DNA of 35,931 bases, from positions 1 through 35,931 of the forward strand of contig JAPKZA010000462.1 of the NCBI GenBank assembly GCA_026394015.1, in the 5' to 3' direction. Positions 1 to 12,613 of the stretch are shown piece after piece (position 1 is the first letter of the stretch; each line of letters starts with the position of its first letter). This DNA comes from Acidobacteriota bacterium (GTDB taxonomy: Bacteria; Acidobacteriota; Terriglobia; Bryobacterales; Bryobacteraceae). Under the pieces are notes generated by a model. It was not told the DNA's origin. It ran no database searches and worked only from the letters and a program-made list of their open reading frames with translations. The translations under genes and the position numbers were made by a program.

Positions 1-1280
1 GCGTCGCGCCGACCCGCTTCGGTCGTCGGTACAGGAACAGTGGGTTCAATCCGCCCAGGAGTTGTCGGATGCATCGGCCGACCCCGATTCATCATCGGAG
101 GGCCGCCGCCCGGACGGCCACCGGAAGGCATTCCAGGGCCAGCGGGGCGCTGCTGCATCGGGCCGCTGCCGCCGGTGCGGCTCGGGCCTTGATAAAGGGG
201 GCGACCAGGCGACGGAGAGCCCGGACGTGCGTTCTGCGGAGGAGCCGGACGGGGAACGCCCGGCGCCGCGGGGGCTTGGCGAAGCTGGTTCAGTCGATTC
301 ACCATGTCCGGCCGAGGCGGGACAATGGGCCGAGCCGTCGGCTGGCCAACCAGCGGACGCTGTGGGTTCGAAATCTGCGCCATCGGCCGACTCGCGGCAC
401 CCGGAGCGGGGCGCGGAGGCGGCGGAGTCGGCATAGCCGGTGCGCCAGGGCGCGCCATGGGAGGCGCGGGCGGCCGCGGAGCCGGCGGGGCGGGCCGAGG
501 GGCCGGATGGCCAAGGATGACAGCCGCCGGCGGCTGCTGCCGGGGCGGAAGCACGACGTTCGGACGCGGGGCGCCCGGTGCGGCCGCCGGAGTCGGGGAC
601 GAAGCAGCGGCCGCACCGGGGAGCGGCTGCCGCGGGCCAGACGCACCAGGAGCAGGCCGCGCGCTGGGAGCCATCGGCATCAGCGGCTTGTTCGCTTGCG
701 GAGCGAGAACCGGTGCCCTCGGCGGGGCAGGGGCGGCAGGCGCGGGCGCGGCGGGCGCCGACGGCGGCACCATCGGCAAAGCCGGGGCACTCGTCACGAT
801 CGGAGGCGTCAGCGGGCCACCACTGGCCAACGGCGGCCGCAGCGGAAACATCGCCCGCGCCGGAGGTGTCGGCGGGGTCGCAGGTGTGGCCGGGGGCGCC
901 GGCTTCGCCACTACTGGAGCAGCGGGAGGAGTTGCCACCGCCACCGGAGCGGCCACCGGAGCCGCAACGACCGGCGCAACTACCACTGGAGGTGGCGGCG
1001 GCGGCGGAGGCGGAGGCGGTGCCGCTGCTCTCGGCTCAGGAATCTCGGGCGCCTCAAAGGGCGCTGCGGCGGGCGGTTCAGCAACAAACAGAAAATCTTG
1101 TTCCTTAGCGAGCGGGCCGAGGCTTGCCAAGCGCTTGCGCAGTGCCAGGGCAACATCCTCGTCAACGGAGCTGGAATGCGTTTTCTTGTCTTCTACGCCA
1201 TACTCCGCAAGCATGTCGAGGATCACGTTTGGTTTCACCTCAAGCTCCCGGGCCAGCTCGTTGATACGAATCTTACTCAT
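1..1280 (-). CDS. infB: Translation initiation factor IF-2, N-terminal part (partial, runs off left edge)
   Basis: IF-2 is the GTPase that brings initiator tRNA to the 30S ribosomal subunit. Only the first 426 codons are in the window; the frame stays open to the left edge, so the G domain is missing. The start is ATG at 1278-1280, giving MSKIRINELARELEV, a typical IF2_N helical domain (about residues 1-50). After that the protein is almost entirely Pro/Ala/Arg/Gly linker up to the edge, including a run of prolines near residues 85-93. Long disordered linkers of this kind are usual in IF-2 of acidobacteria and myxobacteria. The gene follows rimP and nusA on the same strand, the standard order. 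The 184 bp between it and the nusA tail contain no ylxR gene that I can see, and no strong Shine-Dalgarno sequence precedes the ATG. Identity is clear from the N-terminal domain and the neighbours. Confidence 0.93.
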   Translation of the reverse strand, partial: MSKIRINELARELEVKPNVILDMLAEYGVEDKKTHSSSVDEDVALALRKRLASLGPLAKEQDFLFVAEPPAAAPFEAPEIPEPRAAAPPPPPPPPPPPVVVAPVVAAPVAAPVAVATPPAAPVVAKPAPPATPATPPTPPARAMFPLRPPLASGGPLTPPIVTSAPALPMVPPSAPAAPAPAAPAPPRAPVLAPQANKPLMPMAPSARPAPGASGPRQPLPGAAAASSPTPAAAPGAPRPNVVLPPRQQPPAAVILGHPAPRPAPPAPRPPAPPMARPGAPAMPTPPPPRPAPGAASRPMAQISNPQRPLVGQPTARPIVPPRPDMVNRLNQLRQAPAAPGVPRPAPPQNARPGSPSPGRPLYQGPSRTGGSGPMQQRPAGPGMPSGGRPGGGPPMMNRGRPMHPTTPGRIEPTVPVPTTEAGRRD

Positions 1281-1464
1281 AGAGAATCAATAAATGGTCA
1301 AGCGTGTCGAATCTAGCTACATACCGACACTTCTCCTAAAAGCATAGTGAGATCTTGCCCAGAAGCCATAATAACAGATTCCCGTTCAAGTCCCTACCCT
1401 ATCCTGTTCTGGGATAACGGCGAGAACTCTCACGGGGGCCCTGGGCAAGCCTCCTCTCGGTTCA

Positions 1465-1656
1465 CTACTCGGGCTTTGGCTCGGCGATCGCTTCCGCTGG
1501 GGCCTCTGGCTCGGTCGCGGCTGCGGCCTCGCCTTCGGCCGGCACCACTGCTTCGGCCTCGGCGCTCGGTTCGGTGGCGGGCGCTTCGGCGCCCTCCACA
1601 GGCACTTCGGCGCCCTCGGCGGGCACTTCGTACGGCGTTCCATAATACGCGTTCAC
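1465..1656 (-). pseudogene. Displaced C-terminal tail of NusA, out of frame with the main nusA frame
   Basis: This 63-codon frame begins with VNAYYGTPYEVP and continues as an Ala/Glu/Pro-rich acidic tail with repeats such as EGAEVPVEGAEAP. In related NusA proteins a short segment like VNAYYG ends the last helix-hairpin-helix and precedes such a tail, so I read this as the original NusA C-terminus. It overlaps the nusA stop by GTGA (GTG 1654-1656, TGA 1653-1655). It could be translated by termination-reinitiation at that overlap, which would give a separate tail peptide. I infer a deletion of roughly 25 codons with a net frameshift at the junction. A sequencing or assembly error at the junction is the main alternative. 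Confidence 0.6.
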
Positions 1657-2825
1657 CGCCGCACCAATCCAACCGTCGCCACTCCGCCCGCCAGCAACTG
1701 CTCGGCTACCGCTTCCGTCAACCCAAAGTCGATCAGCACCGAAACCGGAGCACCAGATACGGTCAACGCCGCCATCTGCATCTCCACTTCCTGCCGCTTC
1801 TCTTCCTCGCTCTTAATGTCAATCTTCCAGCCGATCAACTTCGCCGCTAAACGGACGTTCTGACCCTTCTTGCCGATCGCCAAAGAAAGCTGGCTGTCAT
1901 CCACGATGACCTCCATGTGCTTGCTCCCCATCTCGACAATCGCCACCCGGCTGATCTTCGCCGGGCTCAGCGCATGCGTCGCAAACGACACCGGCTCCTC
2001 GGAAAACTCAATAATATCGATCTTCTCCCCACGCAACTCGCGGATGATCGACTGCACCCGCATTCCCTTCATGCCGACGCAAGCTCCCACCGAGTCCACG
2101 TCCCGATCCCGCGATGCAACCGCAATCTTGGTCCGCTCACCCGCCTCACGCGCACACGCCTTGATCACAACCGTGTTGTCATAAATCTCAGGCACTTCCT
2201 GCTCAAACAGCCGCTTGACGAACTCGCAATCCGCCCGCGATAAAATCACGCCGGAATTCTTGCCGCTCCGTTCCACGCTCTTGATCACGCACCGCACCCG
2301 GTCGCCCACGTTGAACGACTCCAGCCGCGACTGCTCTTTCTTCGGCATCCGGGCTTCCGTCTTGCCCAAATCACAAATCAGGTCCTGACCCTCAATCCGC
2401 TTCACCGTGCACGTCGCCAACTCGCCCACCCGATTGTGGAACTCGCTGAAAATCGTATCGCGCTCGGCCTCCCGCACCTTCTGCATGATGACCTGCTTGG
2501 CCGTCTGCGCCGAGATCCGGCCCAACGACTCGGTCTTGAGCTTGGTCCGAACCTCGCCGCCCACAACCGCTCGCGGATCACCCTTCAGCGCGTCCGTCAG
2601 GCTGATCTCCCGCGTCTTGTCGGTGACCTCCTCGACAATCTTCTTCACCATGAACAACAGGACCATGCCGGTCTTCTCGTCCATTTCGGCAACCAGTTCA
2701 TCGTTCGTTTTGAACTGTTTGCGCGCGGCGACAAGCATCGCGTCCTTCACGGCGTCAATGATGACTTGCGGATCGATGCCCTTCTCTTTACTGAGCATCT
2801 CGATGGATTGATAAATCGTACCCAA
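1653..2825 (-). CDS. nusA: Transcription termination/antitermination factor NusA, C-terminally truncated
   Basis: NusA binds RNA polymerase and nascent RNA and modulates pausing, termination and antitermination. From TTG at 2825 the protein has 390 residues: the N-terminal RNAP-binding domain (about 1-125), an S1 domain (about 130-200), KH1 with GMKGMRVQSIIREL, and KH2 with IGKKGQNVRLAAKLIGWKIDI-type residues. The first part of the C-terminal helix-hairpin-helix is present (IDFGLTEAVAEQLLAGGVATV), but the frame then reads GLVRR and stops. The usual continuation, of the KLGxMTPEEL..IPGIG type, is missing, and the tail reappears in another frame at 1465-1656. I chose TTG 2825 because AGGAAGGA lies 8-9 bases upstream and the family begins near TIYQSIEML. 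A TTG at 2849 that overlaps rimP is the alternative. All core RNA-binding domains are intact, so the protein may still work. Confidence 0.88.
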   Translation of the reverse strand: MGTIYQSIEMLSKEKGIDPQVIIDAVKDAMLVAARKQFKTNDELVAEMDEKTGMVLLFMVKKIVEEVTDKTREISLTDALKGDPRAVVGGEVRTKLKTESLGRISAQTAKQVIMQKVREAERDTIFSEFHNRVGELATCTVKRIEGQDLICDLGKTEARMPKKEQSRLESFNVGDRVRCVIKSVERSGKNSGVILSRADCEFVKRLFEQEVPEIYDNTVVIKACAREAGERTKIAVASRDRDVDSVGACVGMKGMRVQSIIRELRGEKIDIIEFSEEPVSFATHALSPAKISRVAIVEMGSKHMEVIVDDSQLSLAIGKKGQNVRLAAKLIGWKIDIKSEEEKRQEVEMQMAALTVSGAPVSVLIDFGLTEAVAEQLLAGGVATVGLVRR

Positions 2826-2838
2826 AGTGTTTTCCTTC

Positions 2839-3303
2839 CTACCACTCAAACTTCAAATTCGCTTTGCTAATCAGATCAAACGGGATAGCAACCGTCTTTT
2901 CCGCTGTTTCGAGGGTAACAACCCCCTCGTCAAAGGATGTCAGCGAGCCCTCGTAGCGTTTCGCACCTTCGATCGGCTCCCGCAAACTAACTTTAATCTT
3001 CTGCCCCACGAAACGTTCAAAATCCCGCGGACGACTCAGCCGACGCTCCACTCCCGGGCTACTCACTTCCAACTGATAAGCCGCCTCTCCCGGAATCACG
3101 TCCCCGGCATCAAGCTGCTCGCTCAGTTGGCGCGACACCATCTCGCAGTCGCCATGCGACACCCCGCCCTCTTTGTCGATGTTCACCCGCACCACACGCG
3201 CGGCTCCAGCACCCAGGAGTTCGATCTCCACGATCTCAATTCCCGCGGAGCGAGCTACGCCCTCGGCTATTTCGTAAATTTTATCCAGCAACTCTCGTTT
3301 CAT
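2839..3303 (-). CDS. rimP: Ribosome maturation factor RimP
   Basis: RimP helps assemble the 30S ribosomal subunit. The 154-residue product from ATG 3303 has the two expected parts: an N-terminal alpha/beta domain (ELLDKIYEIAEGVARSAGIEIVEIEL; NIDKEGGVSHGDCE; YQLEVSSPGVERRL) and a C-terminal SH3-like domain (KIKVSLREPIEGAKRYEGSL; VAIPFDLISKANL). The SSPGxxRxL motif is diagnostic. A TTG at 3312 would add three residues, but it falls at the edge of the upstream hairpin's U-tract, so I prefer the ATG. Neither start has a clear Shine-Dalgarno sequence. It is the first gene of rimP-nusA-infB; its stop overlaps the most distal possible nusA start. Confidence 0.93.
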   Translation of the reverse strand: MKRELLDKIYEIAEGVARSAGIEIVEIELLGAGAARVVRVNIDKEGGVSHGDCEMVSRQLSEQLDAGDVIPGEAAYQLEVSSPGVERRLSRPRDFERFVGQKIKVSLREPIEGAKRYEGSLTSFDEGVVTLETAEKTVAIPFDLISKANLKFEW

Positions 3304-3312
3304 CAGGACCAA

Positions 3313-3336
3313 TAAAAAAGTGGGCTTTCGCCCACT
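3313..3336 (-). terminator. Terminator-like hairpin immediately before rimP
   Basis: On the minus strand AGTGGGC-GAAA-GCCCACT (3336 to 3319) forms a perfect 7-bp stem with a GNRA-type tetraloop, followed by TTTTTT. This is a textbook intrinsic terminator. It lies between the two-component operon that ends at 3392 and rimP, and its U-tract ends only about ten bases before the rimP ATG. It may simply end the upstream operon. Because a TACAAT box lies upstream of it, it could also act as an attenuator in the rimP-nusA-infB leader. Confidence 0.7.
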
Positions 3337-3359
3337 GCTCGTCGTTCGTCGACTTTTTC

Positions 3360-3365
3360 ATTGTA
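3360..3365 (-). promoter_or_regulatory. Possible -10 box for the rimP operon
   Basis: TACAAT on the minus strand matches TATAAT at five of six positions and is preceded by GTG, but I see no convincing -35 box. If it is used, transcription would start about seven bases downstream and pass through the hairpin at 3319-3336 before reaching rimP. Confidence 0.3.
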
Positions 3366-3391
3366 CACCCCCTTACCCTCACATGGAGAGC

Positions 3392-4078
3392 TCACACGGA
3401 GAACCGGTAACCCACTCCCCGCACCGTGAAAATGTGGCGAGGGTTTTGAGGGTTATCCTCCAGCTTCTGCCGCAGCCAGGCAATGTGGACATCAATCGTC
3501 CGCGACGACACCGCCGCCTGATACTCCCAAACGTTTTCCAGCAACTCCTCCCGCGGCACCACCTTGCCCCGCCGCTCAATCAAATACTGCAACAACTGCA
3601 ACTCCTTACCGGCCAGATTCACCTCCACCCCACTCTTCACCACATCGCCTTTTTCAAAATCCACCGCCACGTTCCCAAAAGCAAAACTACGCACCGGAGC
3701 CAAGCTCTCCTTATTCACCCGCCGCAGCAACGCCTCGATCCGCGCCACTAGCTCCGCCGGATGAAACGGCTTCGTCAGATAGTCATCCGCCCCCAGCTTC
3801 AGCCCCACCACCCGGTCCACCACCTGTGACTTCGCCGTCAGCATCAAGATCGCCACGTCCCGCCCCTGCTGCCGCAACTCCCGGCACACCTCGTGACCGT
3901 TCTTGCCGGGCAACATCACGTCCAGCACGATCAAATCAAACGCCTCCGACAGCGCTCGCGCCAGCCCCGACGGCCCGTCGGTAGCGGAAAAGACCTCAAA
4001 TCCCTCCGCCGACAGCAAATCCGTCACCGTCAGCACCAGCCCCGGTTCATCTTCAATCAGTAATATTCGTGAACTCAT
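3392..4078 (-). CDS. OmpR/PhoB-family response regulator
   Basis: A 228-residue DNA-binding response regulator. The receiver domain (1-120) has the acidic pair E9-D10, the phospho-acceptor D53 in LIVLDVMLPG, T81 in MLTAK and K103 in LTKPF. A winged-helix OmpR_C domain (about 130-226) ends in the typical HIFTVRGVGYRF. It overlaps the upstream histidine kinase gene by 26 bp, so the two are co-transcribed and almost certainly a cognate pair. Target genes cannot be inferred from the sequence. A terminator-like hairpin follows the gene at 3319-3336. Confidence 0.94.
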   Translation of the reverse strand: MSSRILLIEDEPGLVLTVTDLLSAEGFEVFSATDGPSGLARALSEAFDLIVLDVMLPGKNGHEVCRELRQQGRDVAILMLTAKSQVVDRVVGLKLGADDYLTKPFHPAELVARIEALLRRVNKESLAPVRSFAFGNVAVDFEKGDVVKSGVEVNLAGKELQLLQYLIERRGKVVPREELLENVWEYQAAVSSRTIDVHIAWLRQKLEDNPQNPRHIFTVRGVGYRFSV

Positions 4079-5735
4079 CTTGATACTCCGCCGCCGCGGC
4101 TGGCAGACGGATCAAAAACTCCGCCCCGCCGCCCGGTCCGCTCTTCACTGTAACTGTTCCCCCATGCGCCTCGACGATCCCCCTGACCAGGTTCAGGCCC
4201 AGGCCCGTGCCATGGATCTGTTTCTGCAACGCCTGCCTCCCCCGGAAAAATGCGTCGAAAACGTGGGGTTGCTCATCCACCGGAATCCCCGCCCCACGGT
4301 CCTCCACCCGAATCTCCACCGCCCCGTCCGCCGCCGTTGCCGCCGACAGTCCAACCCACCCATCGCCCTCCGCCCCGTACTTGGCCGCGTTCGAAAGCAG
4401 ATTCTTGATCGCCCGCTCGAGCGACGCCGCGTCCCCCAACACCAGCGGCAGACCCGCCGCCACCTTCATCTCCACCCGGCAACCCGCTTCGCTCATCACG
4501 CTCGCGCTCGAAGCGACGCTCGATTCAAGCAACGTCTCCACCGCCACCGGCTCATGCGCCGCCTGCGTGCTCCGGCCCACTCGCGAACTGGCGTAGTGCA
4601 AAACCTGCTCCACCAGCGCCGTCAGCTTCTCGCTCTCCTGCTGGATCAAAACCCCATACCGTTCCACCTGCGTCGGATTGCTCGCAATCTTCCCCCGCAA
4701 GTTGTACGCTGCCGTGCAAATTACCGCCAGCGGCGTCCGCAGTTCATGAGACACCCCGGCCACAAAATCGATCTGCATCTCCGCCAGTCGCTGCGACTGC
4801 CGTGTCGTATAAACCAAGGTCCAAGCCGTCGCCAGAATCAGCGCCAAGACCCCCGCCATCACCGCCAAATTCCGCCACCGCGTCCGCTCCACCACCGCCT
4901 CCAGCGAACCCGCCTGGTTCCGCACCGCCAGCGTCCACCGCCCCTCCGTCGCCCCCGCATTGCGTCGCCCCGGAGGTCCGCCGCCCCGTCCGCCAAACCC
5001 CATCTCAAACTGCGGCTCGAAAAGCGCCACCTCCGCGTCCGGTGCCGCCAACGCGTCCCCGGCAATCAGCTTCGAAGGATCCCTTCGCGCCGAAACGCTA
5101 TGTCGATACTCCGCCGCGCTCGGCTCTCCCAGATGACGCGCCAAGAGCTCGGGCACCAAAACAGTGGCCAGAAACTGGGCGTCCATCTCCAGCAAAACCC
5201 ATTCCTGCTCCCGCGCTCGAGGTCCGGGCCCCTCCCGCCGAAACCGCGGCAGGTCGATCAGCGTCAGCTCAGCCCGATCCGCTACCCCGCCCCGCCCCCG
5301 CTCCCCCGCCACCCGTTCCCGCATCCGCTCCCGCATCGCCTCCCAATGCTTCGGCCACGCAGTCGGCTCGGCCTTTCCCGTCCGGGGATTCAACCGCTCC
5401 AGCCGCATCTCGCCGGCTTCCGGACGAGCGACAAACGCCTCCCGCAACATCCCGGTATGCCGTCCACTCTCCTCCCAGGCCATCAGCCGCGCCACGTAAT
5501 CCCCATCCTCGCCCCGCATCATCGCCCGACTCAGCACAGAAATCTCTTCGTTGAAATCATGGCTCACCCGCGCCAAACTCCCTTGCAACGTCCGCTGCAG
5601 CCTCTCCCGCTCCGCCACGCTAACTTCGCCAATCCAGCGATACTGCAGCACCCCCAGCAGGCCGCACAGCCCCACCATCGCCCCCACGGCCAGCCCCGCC
5701 TGCCAACTCCGCCGAGTTTGTCGCTTGCCTTGCAT
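4053..5735 (-). CDS. Membrane sensor histidine kinase
   Basis: A 560-residue kinase that autophosphorylates and passes phosphate to the regulator at 3392-4078. There is an N-terminal membrane segment (about 13-34), an extracytoplasmic region of about 250 residues containing a Gly/Arg-rich stretch near 248-262, a second membrane segment (about 289-311), a HisKA dimerisation domain with H330 in FVAGVSHELRTPL, and a HATPase_c domain. The N-box is NLLSNAAKYG (about 446-454), the G1 box DRGAGIP (479-485), the F-box FDAFFRG and the G2 box GTGLGLN (509-515). The extracytoplasmic sensor matches no domain I can name, so the signal is unknown. The gene starts at ATG 5733-5735 and diverges from the dioxygenase gene across about 100 bp. 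Confidence 0.94.
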   Translation of the reverse strand: MQGKRQTRRSWQAGLAVGAMVGLCGLLGVLQYRWIGEVSVAERERLQRTLQGSLARVSHDFNEEISVLSRAMMRGEDGDYVARLMAWEESGRHTGMLREAFVARPEAGEMRLERLNPRTGKAEPTAWPKHWEAMRERMRERVAGERGRGGVADRAELTLIDLPRFRREGPGPRAREQEWVLLEMDAQFLATVLVPELLARHLGEPSAAEYRHSVSARRDPSKLIAGDALAAPDAEVALFEPQFEMGFGGRGGGPPGRRNAGATEGRWTLAVRNQAGSLEAVVERTRWRNLAVMAGVLALILATAWTLVYTTRQSQRLAEMQIDFVAGVSHELRTPLAVICTAAYNLRGKIASNPTQVERYGVLIQQESEKLTALVEQVLHYASSRVGRSTQAAHEPVAVETLLESSVASSASVMSEAGCRVEMKVAAGLPLVLGDAASLERAIKNLLSNAAKYGAEGDGWVGLSAATAADGAVEIRVEDRGAGIPVDEQPHVFDAFFRGRQALQKQIHGTGLGLNLVRGIVEAHGGTVTVKSGPGGGAEFLIRLPAAAAEYQDEFTNITD

Positions 5736-5840
5736 GTACTCCTTTACACTACCTCTCCCCGTGCCGAATCGCCCGTAAAAACATAGTTAAGAACGTTAAG
5801 TTTCAAGGGTATACGACAGACTCTCGCCCTATCATGCCGT

Positions 5841-6467
5841 ATGACTCCTCGTCGCCATTTCCTCTCCGCCCTCCTCACGGTGCCCGGCGCTTTCGCCGAG
5901 CAACTCTCCCTCACCCCCGCCCAAGCCGAAGGCCCGTTCTATCCCGATAAGCTCCCGCTCGATACCGACAACGACCTCCTCGCAGTCAACAAGAACATCA
6001 CCCCCGCCGTCGGCGAAGTGACCTACCTCAGCGGACGCATCCTCGATGCCCGCGGCGAGCCCATCCGCAACGCCCAAGTCGAAATCTGGCAGGTCGACCA
6101 CCACGGAGCCTACCTCCACTCCCGGACCAACAACGCCGACAAACGCGACGTTAACTTCCAAGGCTTCGGCCGCTTCCTCACCGCCTCCACCGGTGAGTAC
6201 CTCTTCCGCACCGTCAAGCCGGTCGTCTACCCCGGCCGCACCCGCCACATCCACATGGCCATCCTGCCTCCTGGCGGCAAGCGGTTCGTCACGCAGGTCT
6301 ACGTGGCCGGCGAGCCCAAAAATGCAAACGATGGCGTCCTCCGCGGCATCCGCGACCCCAAAGCCCGCGAATCCGTTATCGTCCCCTTCGCCCCCCTCCC
6401 TGGATCGAAAATCGGCGAACTCACCGCCCGCTTCGACGTCGTCCTCGGCTTCACCTCTCCCGGTTAG
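5841..6467 (+). CDS. Exported intradiol ring-cleavage dioxygenase-like protein
   Basis: A 208-residue member of the protocatechuate 3,4-dioxygenase/catechol 1,2-dioxygenase fold. The usual non-haem Fe(III) ligands are visible: a Tyr in the DHHGAYLHSR segment (Y91), Y130 in KPVVYPGR, and H136 and H138 in RHIHM. The N-terminus (TPRRHFLSALLTVPGAFA) looks like a signal peptide with an RR pair, so the enzyme is probably exported. Family members cleave catechol-type rings between the hydroxyls; exported single-domain versions are common in soil acidobacteria and often have unknown substrates. The gene stands alone, divergent from the histidine kinase, with no ring-cleavage pathway genes nearby. Annotation as a dioxygenase-like protein is safe; the substrate is not known. 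Confidence 0.85.
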   Translation: MTPRRHFLSALLTVPGAFAEQLSLTPAQAEGPFYPDKLPLDTDNDLLAVNKNITPAVGEVTYLSGRILDARGEPIRNAQVEIWQVDHHGAYLHSRTNNADKRDVNFQGFGRFLTASTGEYLFRTVKPVVYPGRTRHIHMAILPPGGKRFVTQVYVAGEPKNANDGVLRGIRDPKARESVIVPFAPLPGSKIGELTARFDVVLGFTSPG

Positions 6468-6571
6468 AGATCATCTCGGCCAGCCCAGCCGTCTAATCCT
6501 GAGCTTCATTGCGGGAGGGTTTGGATTCGATGCGGTCTTGTAAAAAGCTTACGATGAAAGAAGGATCAGTG

Positions 6572-6817
6572 ATGACGCACACCGACACCGATATCGATTG
6601 GCTTGCTTGCGAACTTATTGAGCAAGTCCCCGGCAAGGTATCGGGCCGACCGATCGTGCGGGGTACGCGCATTCTCCCCGACGCCATCGTGGACAGCTAC
6701 GACCTTGGGGAAACTATTGACGAACTGCTCGAAGGCTTCCCTTCCTTGTCGGTTGTTCAGATCAGACGGCTAATCGAGTTTGCCCACACGCAACGGAGGC
6801 AGCCGCCTAATCCGTGA
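6572..6817 (+). CDS. DUF433 antitoxin (VapB45-like)
   Basis: An 81-residue protein with the DUF433 pattern: GRPIVRGTRILPDAIVDSYDLGETIDELLEGFPSLSV spread over residues 28-66, followed by a helix that includes IRRLIEFAHTQR. In the family this winged-helix protein is the antitoxin/repressor of DUF5615 (PIN-like) toxins. ATG 6572 was chosen because an AAGGA sequence lies about eight bases upstream and the family does not extend further. Its stop overlaps the GTG of the decayed toxin as GTGA (6814-6817). The antitoxin frame is intact although its partner is destroyed. Confidence 0.85.
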   Translation: MTHTDTDIDWLACELIEQVPGKVSGRPIVRGTRILPDAIVDSYDLGETIDELLEGFPSLSVVQIRRLIEFAHTQRRQPPNP

Positions 6818-7124
6818 AGGTGTCGCTCGATGAAAATCTCGATCATGCCTCGCGGCATCTTCGGTAGCGACGATCGCCTACAGTAGGTTCGGCTTCGCTC
6901 ATAAATGGCGAGTTGCCACGGAGAGTGTCGCAAAGCCGAGTGGACCCTTCAGCTACGAGCACAACTTCAGAGGGCTCCGGCTGGCAGTCGTGGCGCTATC
7001 AGCCATTCAGCTCCCCATGAATTCTGTCCCCGGTTCATTTCAGGCGGTCGATTGCGGCACGTTCAGCCGGAAGAAACTGCCCCGGCCAGCAGCGGGAGAA
7101 TGGCGTTGGGCCTTGCGGAGTTAG
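6814..7124 (+). pseudogene. Decayed DUF5615 PIN-like toxin
   Basis: The reading frame starts GTG 6814 with KVSLDENLDHASRHLR, the usual DUF5615 N-terminus including the acidic DEN motif, but TAG at 6865-6867 stops it after 17 codons. Downstream, pieces of the family are still readable in shifted frames: a segment like LINGEL around 6900-6915, and then YEHNFRGLRLAVVALSAI, QLP, PGSF and VDCGTFSR at about 6957-7075. The second fragment matches the C-terminal half of DUF5615 proteins and stays open to TAG at 7122-7124. Several frameshifts and probably an internal deletion have destroyed the toxin, while the antitoxin at 6572-6817 is intact. The identification rests on residue patterns recalled for the family. 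Confidence 0.72.
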
Positions 7125-7328
7125 AGTTTGCGGTTGCCCGCGCGACTTGATCGATCCAGTCTCCTCAAGGGCCGTGGGCGACAGACGGAGCGCACGCCGT
7201 GTAGGAAGTCGGGCGAGTTGCACCTCTGTATCAACCTTGCGATGACCGCTTACACGGTTGAATCTACACCCTCGCGGCCACGAGTACGCCCTCCGGTCAA
7301 GATCTAGTTTGAGGTTCCCTTCGCGACT

Positions 7329-7700
7329 TTGCGGGAGCAGTTTGAGATCTGGCCCCAGTTTTGCGAAGCTTGGACGGTGTCTGACCTGCAAATGGCACCC
7401 GCTGACGTCGTCCAGTGGCTCTGCTTAACGGAGACTATGCTCAGTCCCGGAACCACTATGGCAGGCGTCCAGCAGAGACCTGAAAACTTGCCCTCTGCTT
7501 TTGCCGATTACGACGGACCCGAGAAGATGGGCCGCATTTGCGGCTGGGTGAACGGCTTATTTGATTTTGAGATCATTCGCCACAAGGACGGTGGGCACGT
7601 GTTCTTCCGGCACGTGGAAGCGGAGCAGATCGACAATCCAAGACTCCGTGAAGCGCTCGCAGCCTTTGCGACGGCGCTCGCCGAAACGGCAACCCAGTAA
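7329..7700 (+). CDS. Hypothetical protein
   Basis: A reading frame of up to 123 residues from a TTG at 7329, or 102 from ATG 7392. I recognise no family. The composition is soluble and acidic, with aromatic-rich segments (WPQFCEAW, GWVNGLFDFEII, HVFFRHVEAEQI) and a C-terminal helix of Ala and Leu. No signal peptide or membrane segment is visible. The stretch before it (7125-7328) carries nothing I can identify. The start is uncertain because neither candidate has a clear Shine-Dalgarno sequence. Gene status rests on the plausible amino-acid composition over the whole frame. Confidence 0.5.
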   Translation: MREQFEIWPQFCEAWTVSDLQMAPADVVQWLCLTETMLSPGTTMAGVQQRPENLPSAFADYDGPEKMGRICGWVNGLFDFEIIRHKDGGHVFFRHVEAEQIDNPRLREALAAFATALAETATQ

Positions 7701-7744
7701 CCCGGTTGGATGTTGGTTCCCGATTAACATAATGTTGCCCCTAG

Positions 7745-7954
7745 TCAAGCGACCGGATTCCCAAACGCCTTCATTCCCTTCTCAAGCACCGTCTTCGGAA
7801 ACTGATCGGTGCCGCACAAAATGAAGGAGCCGAAATCCTTGTACCAGTCGCCAGCAGGTGCGACGGGGCCGGTTTTCACCCATTCTTGAAGAGCCAACAG
7901 GTCTGCCACCGAGATGCGTCGCTCATCGACTCGCTGGAGAAGATGCTGCCACAC
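7745..7954 (-). CDS. Small conserved hypothetical protein (DWYKDFG motif)
   Basis: A 69-residue frame from GTG 7954; a CTG a few codons upstream would add the residues LPRP. It contains VWQHLLQRVDERRIS, then LLALQEWVKTGP, then GDWYKDFGSFILCGTD and PKTVLEKGMKAFG. Small proteins with an (E/G)DWYKDFGxFxLCG pattern are familiar to me from many genomes, but I know no function for them. It lies just downstream of the RHH-type gene at 7968-8267 on the same strand, 13 bp away, so the two are probably co-transcribed, and a toxin-antitoxin-like arrangement is possible. That is inference only; nothing in the sequence shows toxin catalytic residues. Confidence 0.62.
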   Translation of the reverse strand: MWQHLLQRVDERRISVADLLALQEWVKTGPVAPAGDWYKDFGSFILCGTDQFPKTVLEKGMKAFGNPVA

Positions 7955-7967
7955 CGGCCGAGGCAGA

Positions 7968-8267
7968 TTAGCGAATTAAATCTTCGGCAATGCAATCTTT
8001 CCCGAAGATCGCGCGAATCAGGTCCTTGCCTGCCTCGTTCTTGCGGGCCGGATCGGTTTCGGTGAGGAAGCAATTATAGGAGGACTTCAAGTGTTCCTTA
8101 GCTTCCACCTCGGCGCGGACGCCGCGCTCTGCGAGGGCGACCAGTGCCCGGCTCATGGTGACGTGCTGTTCCTTAGCCGTACGGCGCACTTCCGGGACGA
8201 GCGTCGCCGGGATCGTAACGCTCTGGCGGACGGATCTCGTGGACCCCGTTTTTCGTACTGCCATCAT
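7968..8267 (-). CDS. Ribbon-helix-helix-type protein, possible antitoxin or regulator
   Basis: A 99-residue protein starting with tandem ATGs (8262-8267). Residues about 13-50 (RQSVTIPATLVPEVRRTAKEQ followed by MSRALVALAERG) have the strand-helix-helix layout of MetJ/Arc-type DNA-binding proteins, including the initial alternating strand SVTIPA. The C-terminal half is helical and charged. Such proteins are commonly antitoxins or autorepressors. It precedes the DWYKDFG gene on the same strand. A perfect 10-bp inverted repeat ends about ten bases before the start codon and could be its operator or a terminator of the upstream operon. Confidence 0.62.
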   Translation of the reverse strand: MMAVRKTGSTRSVRQSVTIPATLVPEVRRTAKEQHVTMSRALVALAERGVRAEVEAKEHLKSSYNCFLTETDPARKNEAGKDLIRAIFGKDCIAEDLIR

Positions 8268-8275
8268 TTAACCCT

Positions 8276-8303
8276 AAAAAACTGCACCAGGGTGGTGCAG
8301 TTT
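8276..8303 (-). terminator. Hairpin with U-tract upstream of the RHH gene (terminator, possibly also operator)
   Basis: AAACTGCACC (8279-8288) and GGTGCAGTTT (8294-8303) are perfect 10-bp inverted repeats around AGGGT. Read on the minus strand the stem is followed by a run of T (8276-8281), as in an intrinsic terminator for the DUF1801/DUF1697 operon ending at 8503. Its position directly before the RHH gene also fits an operator for that protein. Confidence 0.6.
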
Positions 8304-8361
8304 GTTCGCAATAGACCGCACAGCGTACCGGAAACCGGGACCATCGTCGGCCTCCTACCAG

Positions 8362-8377
8362 TGAACGGTGCCGTTCA
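8362..8377. repeat. Short inverted repeat
   Basis: TGAACGG (8362-8368) and CCGTTCA (8371-8377) form a perfect 7-bp palindrome with a 2-bp centre in the 199-bp stretch between the RHH gene region and DUF1697. No T-run follows it. It could be a protein-binding site; nothing else was seen in this stretch. Confidence 0.3.
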
Positions 8378-8502
8378 TCAAGCCCGCCGACCCGTCACGT
8401 TCCATTTCGAGGTTTTCTGCGCGAAGGACCGTTAGCCAACAACACAAGCCACGCGCCGCAGAGCTAAAAGGGTTCAGCTGCCCAGACGGCCCCGAACCCC
8501 GC

Positions 8503-9030
8503 TCAAGAACACAGTTCCCGCGCCAACTCAGTAAGCTTCGCAACCGTATTCATGTTCCGCGCCGTACCCGCCTTCGCCGCCGGAATCGAAAGCCGCGAGT
8601 CCCCCATGCCTTCGCTATAAGCGACGTAGATCTCTCGCGCGCCCAACGCCAGAACTTCGTCTTTTTGATTCTTCACCTCACGGAGCGCATCCGCCGGTGG
8701 CTTCTGATCGAGGAAGATCGCGACCACCCGGTTGCCGGCGCGATCAGGAAATGGGTTGGCCTCCAAAACCGCCGCGATCTCACCGGCGGTCCGGACCAGC
8801 ACCCCGACCGGCTTCCCGGCGTAGACCGCCAGCCGCTTCTCCAGCGCCGTCTTCACACCCTCCTCGTCGAGCTCGCTGACAAACACGACGTTCCCCGAAG
8901 CGATGTACGTCCGCACGCGAGCAAACCCCGCGTCCTCGCACATGGCGGCAAGTTCGCTCATCGGGAGCTTGCCTGTACCCCCTACATTCACGGCTCGCAA
9001 AAGGGCAACATAGGCCCTCGCCTTCGTCAT
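8503..9030 (-). CDS. DUF1697 family protein
   Basis: A 175-residue protein of the DUF1697 family, function unknown. Typical features are the N-terminal ALLRAVNVGGTGKLPMSEL, then AGFARVRTYIASGNVVF, then the EANPFPD segment. I chose ATG 9030 rather than the longer frame to 9078 because the family begins at MTKARAYVALLRAVN and this start overlaps the stop of the upstream DUF1801 gene by four bases (ATGA). It is the last gene of a three-gene operon: ArsR-SRPBCC regulator, DUF1801, DUF1697. Confidence 0.88.
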   Translation of the reverse strand: MTKARAYVALLRAVNVGGTGKLPMSELAAMCEDAGFARVRTYIASGNVVFVSELDEEGVKTALEKRLAVYAGKPVGVLVRTAGEIAAVLEANPFPDRAGNRVVAIFLDQKPPADALREVKNQKDEVLALGAREIYVAYSEGMGDSRLSIPAAKAGTARNMNTVAKLTELARELCS

Positions 9031-9434
9031 CGCTTCTTTCCCCCCACAAACGGCATCGTCGCCGCCTGCTTCATCCATAGCGCCAATTGCCCCTCGTCGA
9101 GATCGGCCAGGGAAGCGATCTCCACCCCGCGCGTCGATTTGCCCATTGCAATCGGTGTCACCGGCGGTTCAGGCCGGATCTCCGTGCCCCTTATAAACAT
9201 CAACTTCACGTGGCCGACGAAGCCGCCGCAAGAAAAGCACCAGCCCCCGTCGACCCCGTAGTACGCCATGCCCCACTTCACCGCGCGCTGGATACCCGGC
9301 AGACTTTCGGCCCCCGGGGCATCGATGCGCTCGGCGATGCCGCGCTGCGGATGCGGCAAACTCGCGATGTACGCGAACACCGGTTTGTCGCCGGCCGCGG
9401 TCTTCGCAGCGCTCCTAGCACCGGGCTGCGTCAC
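9027..9434 (-). CDS. DUF1801 (YdhG-like) family protein
   Basis: A 135-residue protein with the DUF1801 pattern: FAYIASLPHPQRGIAERI, then GIQRAVKWGMAYYG, then WCFSCGGFVGHVKLMFIRG. The fold is YdhG/YjhX-like and the biochemical function is unknown. Members often travel with SRPBCC and ArsR genes, as here. The gene overlaps the regulator gene upstream and the DUF1697 gene downstream by four bases each, so the three are translated as one operon. The WCFSCGGF stretch gives two cysteines, but no metal site can be claimed. Confidence 0.85.
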   Translation of the reverse strand: MTQPGARSAAKTAAGDKPVFAYIASLPHPQRGIAERIDAPGAESLPGIQRAVKWGMAYYGVDGGWCFSCGGFVGHVKLMFIRGTEIRPEPPVTPIAMGKSTRGVEIASLADLDEGQLALWMKQAATMPFVGGKKR

Positions 9435-10060
9435 AGGCTAGCCAGCAGTTCGTCGAGTTGGTCGAGCGTCTCCGTCATCGCGCCCGCCGATCCAGAGTCG
9501 ACCGCCTCCTTCGAGGGATAGAGATCGTGCACAATCACCAAAGTCTTGCCAGCCTTCTCCTCGAAAGTAACCGTCGTCACGGTCATCCCGCTCTCCCCTT
9601 CCTCGTTCGTCCAAACCAGGCGCGAATCCGGTATCACTTCGACGTACGTGCCGAAGAACTCCATCGTAGAATCCTGGTGCTGAAAAACCAGACTATACCT
9701 GCCCCCCACGCGAACATCCATCTCGCAGGAAAGCAGCGTCAACCCATACGACTTCGGCACCCACCACCTTCTGAACAATTCCGCCTTGGTCCACGCCTCG
9801 AACACAAGGCGCGCAGGGGCATTGACGGTTCGAGTGACGACGACTTCGCGATCGGACTTCCGTTTCAATTCTTCGACCACGTTGTCCAACTCGTCGAAGC
9901 GTGCGCTCCAGAGCTGGCGGTACCTCTCGATCCAAGCCGCCTCTTCTTGCAGTCCCCGTACGCCCAGCTTGCAGGTCCGCACGCGCCCCACCTTCTCCGT
10001 CGTCACGAGCCCCGCCTGCTCCAGCACGCCGACGTGCTTCTTCATCCCCGTCAGAGTCAT
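9431..10060 (-). CDS. ArsR-type winged helix fused to SRPBCC (AHSA1-like) domain; original start probably at 10187-10189
   Basis: The frame encodes an ArsR-family regulator fused to an SRPBCC/AHSA1 ligand-binding domain (REVVVTRTVNAPARLVFEAWT, LFRRWWVP, TVTFEEKAGKT). The first ATG is at 10060, which would begin inside the winged helix (MTLTGMKKHVGVLEQAGLV) and lose its first helices. Upstream in the same frame the expected N-terminus is clearly readable: VQYIQPQLDASFGALSDATR, followed by RGVLEQLGREDASITALAAR. The codon where an initiator would be expected (10187-10189) reads AGG, not ATG, and lies in the centre of a perfect palindrome; no ATG, GTG or TTG occurs before an in-frame TAG further upstream. 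Either a CTG in the palindrome starts translation, or the gene lost its start and makes only a truncated product. Confidence 0.82.
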   Translation of the reverse strand: MTLTGMKKHVGVLEQAGLVTTEKVGRVRTCKLGVRGLQEEAAWIERYRQLWSARFDELDNVVEELKRKSDREVVVTRTVNAPARLVFEAWTKAELFRRWWVPKSYGLTLLSCEMDVRVGGRYSLVFQHQDSTMEFFGTYVEVIPDSRLVWTNEEGESGMTVTTVTFEEKAGKTLVIVHDLYPSKEAVDSGSAGAMTETLDQLDELLASL

Positions 10061-10173
10061 CTGGAACCGCGCAGCCAGCGCCGTGATCGAAGCGTCCTCC
10101 CGCCCGAGCTGTTCTAAAACGCCACGTCGGGTGGCGTCCGAGAGCGCACCGAATGACGCGTCAAGCTGCGGCT

Positions 10174-10205
10174 GGATATACTGAACCCTCTGGTTCAGTA
10201 TATCC
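10174..10205. promoter_or_regulatory. Perfect 14-bp palindrome, probable operator of the ArsR-type regulator
   Basis: GGATATACTGAACC (10174-10187) and GGTTCAGTATATCC (10192-10205) are perfect inverted repeats around CTCT. The site covers the expected translation start of the ArsR-SRPBCC gene. ArsR-type repressors bind such dyads in their own promoters, so autoregulation is likely. The symmetry extends unbroken through all 14 positions, stronger than expected for a chance repeat. Confidence 0.75.
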
Positions 10206-10231
10206 CATCGCCGCGTTGTCGCCTATCCACC

Positions 10232-11368
10232 TCACCCCGCAATCAACCCGGCCAACAAAGCCGTCCGATCCGCAATTCGATTCAAAAACAACGACTCATT
10301 CACCGCATGAGCCCCCTCCCCGACGGCCCCCAACCCGTCCAGCGTCGGCACCCCCAACGCCGCCGTAAAGTTGCCGTCCGATCCGCCTCCCGTCGAAGAC
10401 TCCTCCAGCGTCACCCCCATCGCCGCCGCCAACTTCCGCGCCTGCTCATACCAAGCCCCAATCGCCTTCGTCCGCTCCATCGGCGGCCGGTTCAATCCGC
10501 CCGTCACCACCATCGAACACCGTGGGTCCACCACCCGCAGCCCTCGAAACTTCTTCTCCAACGGTCCCGCATCCTTCAGCCGCGCAATCCGAATATCCAC
10601 GTCCACACTCGCCTCCGCCGGCACCACATTGCTCCGCGAACCGCCCCGAATCACCCCCGGGTTCACCGTCAACCCAATCCCCAAATCCGTAAACCCGGCA
10701 ATCTTCTCAATCTGCCGCGCCAACTCCACAATCGCGTTCGCCCCGTTCGTAAAATCCACCCCCGCATGAGCCGCCCGACCCGTCACCGTCACCGCAAAAC
10801 CGCCCACTCCCTTCCGCGCCGTCTTCAGCTTGCCCTCCGGCCCCGTCCCCGGCTCCAGCACCAACACTCCCGCGCTCTTCCGCGCCTGCGCCTCCGTCAA
10901 CGCCCGGGAACTCGGGCTCCCCACCTCCTCCTCGGAGTTCAACTGCAAAACCACCTTCCGCCCCACCGGCACATCCAACTCCCGCAAGGCCTCCATCGCA
11001 TGCAGAAAAAACGCCACCCCGCCCTTCATGTCATAAACCCCCGGCCCCCACAGCCGTCCCTCCGCCTCCCGCCAAGGCATCGTCTTCAGCGTCCCCATCG
11101 GCCAAACCGTATCCGTATGGCCCAGCGCCAGCCACTGCCCCGTCTTCTTCTTGCCCGGCAACTGCATCTCCAGCAGCATATGGTCCCCAAAGCCCTTGGC
11201 CTTCTTCCTGGTGATCTTGGCCATGTGGCCCCACCGGTCGGCAATCTGCTCCACCTGCCGATTCACCGCCATCGCATCGTCGCTCGGCGACTCACACTCC
11301 ACCATTTCACGAATCGTCGAGACTATGCGGCGCTCGTTCGCCCGGGTCCAGGAAAGAAAATTATCCAC
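10232..11368 (-). CDS. M20 family metallopeptidase (carboxypeptidase G2-like)
   Basis: A 378-residue zinc peptidase from GTG 11368. Metal and catalytic residues of the M20 family are visible: H84 and D86 in ALGHTDTVWP, D113 in VYDMKGG, and E147/E148 in NSEEEVGSP. The dimerisation domain in the middle has the usual GRAAHAGVDFTNGANAI. A C-terminal histidine in GEGAHAVNE completes the site. The arrangement is closest to glutamate carboxypeptidase/CPG2-like enzymes, which remove a C-terminal glutamate or related residue; the real substrate is unknown. No signal peptide is seen. The start is uncertain: the frame can extend to 11416, but that would overlap divergent fabZ, and the family begins near DNFLSWTRANE. 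Only 23 bp separate this start from fabZ. Confidence 0.9.
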   Translation of the reverse strand: MDNFLSWTRANERRIVSTIREMVECESPSDDAMAVNRQVEQIADRWGHMAKITRKKAKGFGDHMLLEMQLPGKKKTGQWLALGHTDTVWPMGTLKTMPWREAEGRLWGPGVYDMKGGVAFFLHAMEALRELDVPVGRKVVLQLNSEEEVGSPSSRALTEAQARKSAGVLVLEPGTGPEGKLKTARKGVGGFAVTVTGRAAHAGVDFTNGANAIVELARQIEKIAGFTDLGIGLTVNPGVIRGGSRSNVVPAEASVDVDIRIARLKDAGPLEKKFRGLRVVDPRCSMVVTGGLNRPPMERTKAIGAWYEQARKLAAAMGVTLEESSTGGGSDGNFTAALGVPTLDGLGAVGEGAHAVNESLFLNRIADRTALLAGLIAG

Positions 11369-11372
11369 GTTT

Positions 11373-11383
11373 GTTAGACTAAC
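11373..11383. repeat. Palindrome in the 23-bp divergent gap M20 peptidase/fabZ
   Basis: GTTAG-A-CTAAC is an 11-bp perfect palindrome occupying about half of the 23 bp between two divergent start codons. It could bind a regulator, but there is no room for two complete promoters here, so promoter elements must extend into the coding regions. Confidence 0.3.
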
Positions 11384-11391
11384 TAATTCGT

Positions 11392-11835
11392 ATGGCAATT
11401 CTCGACATAGACGCAATTCGCGACATCCTTCCCCACCGATATCCCTTCCTCCTCGTGGACCGGATCATCGAACTGGAGGAAGAACGCATCGTCGGCATTA
11501 AGAACGTAACTGCCAACGAGCCCTTCTTTGTTGGGCATTTCCCTGATTTCCCCGTCATGCCCGGTGTCCTCATCACCGAATGCATGGCCCAGGTCGCCGG
11601 GGTTCTCGTGCTCAAAAGCATCCCCGATCGCCACTCCAAACTCGTCCTCCTCGCCTCGGTCGACGACGCCAAGTTCCGTCGCCCCGTCCGCCCCGGCGAC
11701 CAACTCCGCATCGAAATGAAAATGGTGAGCCGCAAATCCACCATCTGTAAAATGACCGGCAAGGTCACCGTCGACGGTGTCGTCGTCGCCGAAGCAACCC
11801 TCATGTGCGTCCTCCGCGACAAGCCCTCGGCCTAA
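11392..11835 (+). CDS. fabZ: 3-hydroxyacyl-ACP dehydratase FabZ
   Basis: FabZ dehydrates 3-hydroxyacyl-ACP in fatty acid elongation and competes with LpxA for the hydroxyacyl-ACP pool. The 147-residue protein has the hot-dog fold signature with catalytic H49 and E63 in VGHFPDFPVMPGVLITECMA. The N-terminal ILPHRYPFLLVDRI segment is also typical. It begins the envelope operon, and lpxA starts one base after its stop. The fabZ-lpxA-lpxI order is a common lipid A cluster. Confidence 0.96.
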   Translation: MAILDIDAIRDILPHRYPFLLVDRIIELEEERIVGIKNVTANEPFFVGHFPDFPVMPGVLITECMAQVAGVLVLKSIPDRHSKLVLLASVDDAKFRRPVRPGDQLRIEMKMVSRKSTICKMTGKVTVDGVVVAEATLMCVLRDKPSA

Positions 11836-11836
11836 A

Positions 11837-12613
11837 ATGCCCATCCACCCGACCGCCATCGTTGACCCCTCCGCCCGGATCGACGACACCGCCGTCATCG
11901 GCCCCTTCTGCGTCATCGGTGCCGATGTCTCCATCGGCGCCCATACCGGCCTGAAGGCCCACGTCTACGTCGAAGGCCCCTCCACCATCGGCGAAGAGAA
12001 CATCTTCTACCCCTATACCACCGTCGGCGTCGCCCCGCAGGACCTGAAATACCACGGCGAACGCGCCGAAACCCGCATCGGTTCCCGCAACAAAATTCGC
12101 GAATTTGTCACGATCCACCGCGGCACCGCCGGCGGCGGGATGGTCACCACCATCGGCGATGAAAATCTCCTCATGGCTTACTCCCACATCGCCCACGACG
12201 TCCACCTCGGCTCCCACTGCGTCCTCGCCAACGGCGTCACCCTCGCCGGGCACGTCTTCATCGGCGATTGGGCCGTCATCGGCGCCTTCACCGGCGTCCA
12301 TCAGTTCTGCCGCATCGGCAAACACGCCATGGTCGGCGGCTACAGCGTCATCACCCAGGACGTCATGCCCTTTGCCACCACCGTCTCCAAACGCGAAAAC
12401 TCCGTCTTCGGCGCCAATGCCACCGGCCTCGAACGCCGCGGCTTCGACCCCATTGCTATAGAGCATTTGCAGAACGCGCTCCGCCTCCTCACCCGCGCCA
12501 AACTCAACACCTCCCAAGCCATCGAACGCATCCAGGCCGAAATCCCCCCCACCCCCGAAATCGCCGATCTGCTCGCCTTCATTCAGTCCTCCGAACGCGG
12601 CGTCGTCAAGTAA
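11837..12613 (+). CDS. lpxA: UDP-N-acetylglucosamine O-acyltransferase LpxA
   Basis: LpxA transfers a 3-hydroxyacyl chain from ACP to UDP-GlcNAc, the first step of lipid A synthesis. The 258-residue protein shows left-handed beta-helix hexapeptide repeats from the start (HPTAIVDPSARIDDTAVIGP), the conserved catalytic His region AYSHIAHDVHLG, and the C-terminal helical region with NATGLERRGF. I start at ATG 11837, one base after the fabZ stop; a longer frame from 11777 lies inside fabZ and does not match the family. The C-terminus (about 205-258) is the usual ACP-contacting helical tail. The presence of an oxidoreductase downstream raises the question of whether the acceptor sugar is a 3-amino form, but that cannot be read from the sequence. 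Confidence 0.95.
   Translation: MPIHPTAIVDPSARIDDTAVIGPFCVIGADVSIGAHTGLKAHVYVEGPSTIGEENIFYPYTTVGVAPQDLKYHGERAETRIGSRNKIREFVTIHRGTAGGGMVTTIGDENLLMAYSHIAHDVHLGSHCVLANGVTLAGHVFIGDWAVIGAFTGVHQFCRIGKHAMVGGYSVITQDVMPFATTVSKRENSVFGANATGLERRGFDPIAIEHLQNALRLLTRAKLNTSQAIERIQAEIPPTPEIADLLAFIQSSERGVVK

Follow-up and report, generated by a model that had tools for sequence, protein, structure and literature searches.

A conserved terminator-like hairpin ahead of rimP-nusA-infB in Bryobacteraceae, with predicted feedback control by NusA

What does a terminator-like hairpin do between a possible promoter and rimP-nusA-infB, an operon that encodes NusA, itself a modulator of such hairpins? The question was raised by an earlier note on a 35,931-nucleotide stretch of Bryobacteraceae DNA (contig JAPKZA010000462.1 of assembly GCA_026394015.1; hereafter the window), which suggested that the arrangement would allow NusA to feed back on its own operon. 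On the minus strand, read 5' to 3', the stop codon of a response regulator gene (3394–3392) is followed by the box TACAAT (3360–3365), 23 nt, the hairpin, its T run, the bases ATTGG (3309–3313) and the rimP ATG (3303–3301). The upstream gene (3392–4078, minus strand) is of OmpR/PhoB type by domain match and lies outside the element. The hairpin proper, AGTGGGCGAAAGCCCACT at 3336–3319, is a 7-bp stem with a GAAA loop (AGTGGGC-GAAA-GCCCACT), and together with its T6 (3319–3314) it occupies 3314–3336, as delimited by a terminator scan, folding and comparison with relatives. The T6 stops ten bases short of the rimP ATG, as the earlier note had said and as the coordinates in the sequence bear out, and because this gap is ten bases long it leaves no room for the downstream promoter that the note had named as the arrangement speaking against its idea.

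The operon itself is read from the same strand. The rimP gene (2839–3303, placed by its open reading frame end; RimP_N 8.5e-21, DUF150_C 7.7e-20) is followed by nusA (1653–2849, its start placed provisionally; NusA_N 1.7e-34, KH_5 4.4e-28, TIGR01953 5.5e-118) and by the N-terminal part of infB (1–1280; IF2_N 9e-11), which runs off the contig end. Compared with its relatives, nusA appears to be cut short at the C-terminal end by a change of frame: in the stretch 1270–1760 (minus strand) the frame meets an early stop after ...GGVATVGLVRR, giving 381 codons from MLSKEKGID, and the genes of L002–L005, L007–L009 and L137 are longer, at 431–464 (L012 was not found by the search word used). The relatives' C-terminal sequence (AVNAYYGTPYE...) resumes in a different frame of the window, and the early stop may be either a real shortening or an assembly error.

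The window alone offers modest evidence for the element. In a terminator scan of positions 1–12000 the rimP hairpin tops the list, the total of 13 hairpins being near the 10.7 expected by chance, so that the scan by itself is weak evidence. Folded in isolation the hairpin reaches −12.6 kcal/mol, and the RNA fold of a 102-nt stretch includes it (z = −1.65), with 12 of 200 shuffles equal or better; taken alone, this region folds no more stably than would be ordinary. A sigma-70 scan of the window did not report the TACAAT promoter, and the best −35 match upstream of the box, TCTCCA, agrees at 3 of 6 positions. It is the comparison with relatives that decides the matter.

RimP was matched in 55 of 61 genomes, own included. 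The search returned 30 rimP loci, one from the window itself and 29 from relatives, and every one of them has the stem GTGGGC/GCCCAC with T6. A wider set of 125 rimP loci, again own included, was made up of these 30, 25 further relatives' genomes and 30 plus 40 loci from a phylum search, all of them from related genomes and hence not independent of one another; a terminator-like hairpin preceded rimP in 122. Dinucleotide shuffles gave one in 79 of 625 cases and the antisense strand in 15 of 125, which puts the hairpin above chance. The three others (L244, L258 and L269) gave no terminator-like hairpin in the rimP upstream stretch examined. The phylum sample, drawn from 208 genomes with RimP, comprised 30 loci returned by the search and a further 40 chosen manually, as a rule one per family still unrepresented (its first listed place), with three extra from family f8; the RimP-bearing families f18, f29, f44 and f53 fall outside it.

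A conservation profile was built from 29 of the 30 returned loci, L029 with its 5-nt loop being excluded. The hairpin and T6 averaged 1.89 bits per column and the 60 nt before them 0.34. Behind the T run, the first five positions (ATTGG in the window) averaged 1.47 bits and the next 35 nt 0.27. The rows of this profile were chosen by the stem pattern, which all 30 loci have; those five positions lay outside that pattern. The loops are GNRA tetraloops in 28 of 30 loci (counted by eye), and the six inner stem pairs are invariant within the family (9 distinct hairpins). Outside the family other standard pairs occur, stem pair 2 being TA in 43, GC in 8 and other pairs in the rest of 65 distinct phylum hairpins, a covariation that is no independent proof because the hairpins were selected by a pairing rule. 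We regard the terminator-like hairpin ahead of rimP-nusA-infB as confirmed, both as real and as conserved.

The motif is also tied closely to rimP. The strict form GTGGGC-N(3–8)-GCCCAC-T6 occurs once in the window's genome; of 61 genomes, 49 have it, at 50 places in all. By coordinates 49 of these places are at rimP, and the reversed control gave 0. Across the order it was found in 216 of 257 genomes, one copy each except G023 with two, and the reversed control gave none; these places were partly listed, and the linkage to rimP covers those shared with the 61-genome set. A form restricted to a 4-nt loop was found across the phylum in 37 of 247 genomes at 38 places, all 37 genomes having it at rimP (30 by HMM, 7 by coordinates); the 38th place is a site in G173 matched a second time, on its other strand. 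The form's reversed control matched in 1 of 247 genomes (G137). The strict motif was absent from 12 of 61 and 41 of 257 genomes, and its 4-nt-loop form from 210 of 247, some of these having variant stems and some having no rimP match. Scanning the genomes of 84,980 species gave at least 115 motif loci, at least 94 of them with rimP within 300 nt downstream. Among the 80 titled loci listed, the rimP-linked records include Alphaproteobacteria, Deltaproteobacteria, Nitrospira, Aquificota, Calditrichaeota, KSB1 and Lachnospiraceae. The remaining 21 of the 115 loci include L069 and L147, in which the sequence covered past the motif is 33 and 192 nt long, and sites clearly elsewhere than at rimP.

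Several of the motif loci have features of their own. Four from Nostocales (L064, L112, L126, L138), in which no rimP match was seen, carry GTGGGC-loop-GCCCAC-T6-ATT, and in L112 and L126 the motif lies about 10 nt past a 402-codon open reading frame, like an ordinary 3' terminator. A similar longer stretch, again with no rimP match, is shared by Oscillospiraceae SIG642 (L071, L128), Clostridia RGIG1744 (L080) and L152, in all of which GGCRAGYARCTTCGA stands immediately ahead of GTGGGCGTTGCCCAC-T6. In Lactobacillus laiwuensis (L131) and the similar L150, the motif is at the end of a short open reading frame, ahead of one that we named by eye as an ABC-type ATPase.

We predict TACAAT to be the −10 box of the rimP operon promoter, with a weak −35, from its near-fixed spacing to the hairpin in relatives and from hexamer enrichment. 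Defining a −10-like hexamer as one with at least four of six matches to TATAAT, A at position 2 and T at position 6, we asked how often one ends 15–35 nt ahead of the hairpin. It does so in 30 of the 32 loci of the family (the window's own included); among other relatives the count is 23 of 23, and in the phylum sample 40 of 67, with L215 counted in both the family and the other-relative groups and 121 of 122 hairpins anchored. At a control distance of 45–65 nt the same hexamer was present in 1 of 32, 3 of 23 and 15 of 67 loci; the −10 signal is weaker beyond the family. Within the 30 returned loci the box is present in 29, with none in L019. From 118 of the 122 leaders, reduced to 94 non-redundant ones, the most enriched hexamers included TATAAT (10 seen, 0.8 expected), TACAAT (8 against 0.4) and TATACT (6 against 0.3), and milder enrichment was seen for CTTTC (13 against 3.7), TTCGGC (7 against 1.2) and TGGCGA (6 against 1.0). 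In four rimP leaders (L061, L077, L100, titled Bryobacter, and L172), GAGAGTTCTTTTA lies between box and hairpin, a stretch which we take to resemble boxA.

The order of promoter-like box, hairpin and rimP-nusA-infB described in the earlier note is present, and it is kept in relatives even where the upstream gene is different, which supports the note's reading. In 9 of the 30 returned loci, from the window's own (L001) to L009, the next gene upstream, in the same orientation, is a response regulator whose match ends 45–58 nt from the hairpin, which would fit a hairpin that is merely the 3' terminator of a sensor kinase-response regulator operon, rimP being reached by leaky readthrough with no control involved. 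This seems to us quite improbable, as no response regulator was matched upstream in the remaining 21 loci and yet all 21 have the hairpin, four of them (L012, L021, L022, L025) having instead a tRNA-Val on the same strand 73–87 nt before it with a −10-like box in between, and the hairpin goes with rimP throughout the phylum sample. Since the upstream gene varies whilst box and hairpin stay, we read the element as the operon's own leader.

The explanation that we consider probable as a whole joins a predicted promoter, a terminator hairpin in the leader and negative feedback by NusA on rimP-nusA-infB; we infer promoter activity, start site and termination, and, by analogy with other bacteria, NusA as the effector. 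Transcription would start at about base 3353, from a sigma-70-type promoter lying some 30 nt ahead of the hairpin, and after a poorly conserved predicted leader of some 16–17 nt (3337–3353, assuming a start about 7 nt past the −10 box) the polymerase would make the GTGGGC-GAAA-GCCCAC hairpin followed by six U residues, which may act as an intrinsic terminator or a termination-prone pause. Some transcripts would end at the hairpin, as an RNA that with the same assumed start is predicted to run for about 40 nt to the end of the T run, and the remainder would read through into the operon, reaching the rimP ATG about 50 nt from the start. NusA, the product of the second gene, would stimulate hairpin-dependent pausing and termination, so that high NusA would mean less readthrough and low NusA more, closing a negative feedback loop. 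Against this reading stand the weak −35 and the promoter's absence from the scan, the fainter −10 signal beyond the family, the ordinary folding energy, the apparent disruption at the C-terminal end of NusA, the three rimP loci with no hairpin in the stretch examined and the genomes that lack the strict motif.

Leader terminators are frequently part of riboswitches, and a further candidate for the control of this operon is a leader of the riboswitch or T-box kind, in which an RNA antiterminator would form. We hold it to be very improbable: the RNA predicted ahead of the hairpin is about 16 nt long and unconserved, too short for an RNA antiterminator, a protein effector being compatible with it, and no Rfam family matched the window at gathering score. 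Two Rfam hits obtained in E-value mode, SNORD74 and Bp1_162, were far below gathering and were taken as chance. A small open reading frame from an ATG overlapping TACAAT (MKKSTNDEQWAKAHFFIG...) is preceded in the window by a purine-rich stretch and might be read as a leader peptide, with the conservation being coding. Many family loci have no ATG between box and hairpin, however (for example L004–L006, L010 and L011), and where an ATG exists the frame through the hairpin differs (L001, L003, L012); with neither start nor frame conserved we rejected this frame and give the leader peptide practically no credence. A closer rival keeps the hairpin as a regulatory site but supposes that its main role is to pause polymerase or to be recognised by a different factor, such as RimP, NusG or a sequence-specific RNA-binding protein, which would stop polymerase or let it pass, NusA then not being the sensor. 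Conservation of the stem, and of the positions behind the T run, does go beyond the needs of a generic terminator, and RimP is also named as a possibility in a passage of Naville and Gautheret (PMC2965389). Even so we think it unlikely, as passages of PMC2965389, PMC4448216 and PMC6511841, in one case a reference title, mention feedback by NusA on the operon in E. coli, and a 2025 review (PMC12288461, citing Mondal 2016) states in the passage concerned that B. subtilis NusA is autoregulated through NusA-stimulated termination in its leader. It is because of this B. subtilis report that we take NusA to be the best candidate for the effector.

NusA feedback is a published proposal for the rimP-leader element in general (passages of PMC2965389 and PMC4448216). 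As described in the relevant passages of Naville and Gautheret (2010, PMC2965389), where it comes first in the list of attenuated genes, the general rimP-leader is a GGGc...gCCC hairpin with a T run, with no visible antiterminator and with NusA as the favoured effector; the same passages give almost none of the predicted attenuators in Acidobacteria an associated function. The window's element resembles that description in its stem and T run directly before rimP-nusA-infB (here GTGGGC-GAAA-GCCCAC-T6), in the gap from hairpin to gene (4–130 nt there, 10 nt here) and in having no larger conserved element around it, as the low information content of the 60 nt ahead of the hairpin (0.34 bits) indicates. 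It differs in the stem GTGGGC/GCCCAC fixed across the family with mostly GNRA loops, in a very short predicted leader and in the conserved bases after the T run. The Rfam model for the rimP leader, RF01770, concerns the same gene and position, but it is a 102-position model which among 14 control genomes matches E. coli alone, and it gave 0 matches in the window's genome at E ≤ 0.001 and none for 3250–3450 up to E 10. We conclude that the window's element belongs to the known general rimP-leader and is missed by Rfam's model.

The B. subtilis nusA operon leader likewise has an intrinsic terminator, and NusA control of the operon is reported there and predicted here, but it is 180 nt long (PMC2965389) compared with the roughly 50 nt predicted from start to rimP ATG in the window. 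For the rimP-nusA leader of S. agalactiae, a passage of PMC4448216 reports from RNA-seq a short RNA ending 31 nt from the start together with a long transcript from the same start, so that the short RNA is measured there, whereas that of about 40 nt is predicted here. The earlier note had appealed to attenuators in the E. coli rimP-nusA-infB leader, and this comparison holds good: a passage of PMC6511841 places two terminators, t1 and t2, ahead of rimP, and we see two terminator-like hairpins in the sequence. One of these, GGGCTTTAGGCCC followed by T7, stands 17 nt before the annotated rimP start, and by our own reading it would be one of t1 and t2. Unlike the window, the E. coli metY-rimP-nusA-infB operon has two tandem terminators, with metY and several promoters upstream (PMC6511841, same passage).

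Termination by itself would not require a stem whose sequence is so nearly fixed, and the plain NusA model leaves this unexplained; it is because that model does not cover the fixed stem that we propose sequence-specific recognition. The invariant hairpin may be a sequence-specific signal, in which a factor, NusA or a NusA complex, would read the GTGGGC/GCCCAC duplex together with the nucleotides that follow the U tract, defining a tiny regulon controlled in trans. We put this forward tentatively, as a possibility on the doubtful side. The second motif copy of G023 bears on it: this 50th place is on contig C131, with an IF2_N match beginning about 118 nt further on, and rimP-nusA is on contig C278. 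Two records of Bryobacterales UBA10490, L110 and L137, seem to be the records of these two contigs and have identical motifs. The infB copy of the hairpin is at 3796–3821 (minus strand) of L110, corresponding to G023:C131:27799–27821 (minus strand), and the rimP copy at 2112–2136 (plus strand) of L137. Within the 8 kb examined in each, L110 has infB without a rimP or nusA match, and L137 has rimP, nusA and then another long open reading frame, without an infB match. The −10-like boxes are TAAACT in the infB leader and TACACT in the rimP leader; infB in UBA10490 appears split over two frames. Because G023 is a metagenome assembly, its split operon may be a misjoin.

The rimP-leader headed the attenuated genes of the 2010 survey, yet Rfam's model misses it here. 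The sampled relatives of this bacterium nearly always have the hairpin (122 of 125 loci), and its stem is so fixed in the family that a specific reader is called for. If that reader defines a sequence-specific regulon, G023 would offer a natural example in its split operon, where infB has a −10-like box and a hairpin to itself. The minimal form of the leader, a predicted promoter, about 16 nt and a hairpin, may serve as a simple template for testing NusA feedback.
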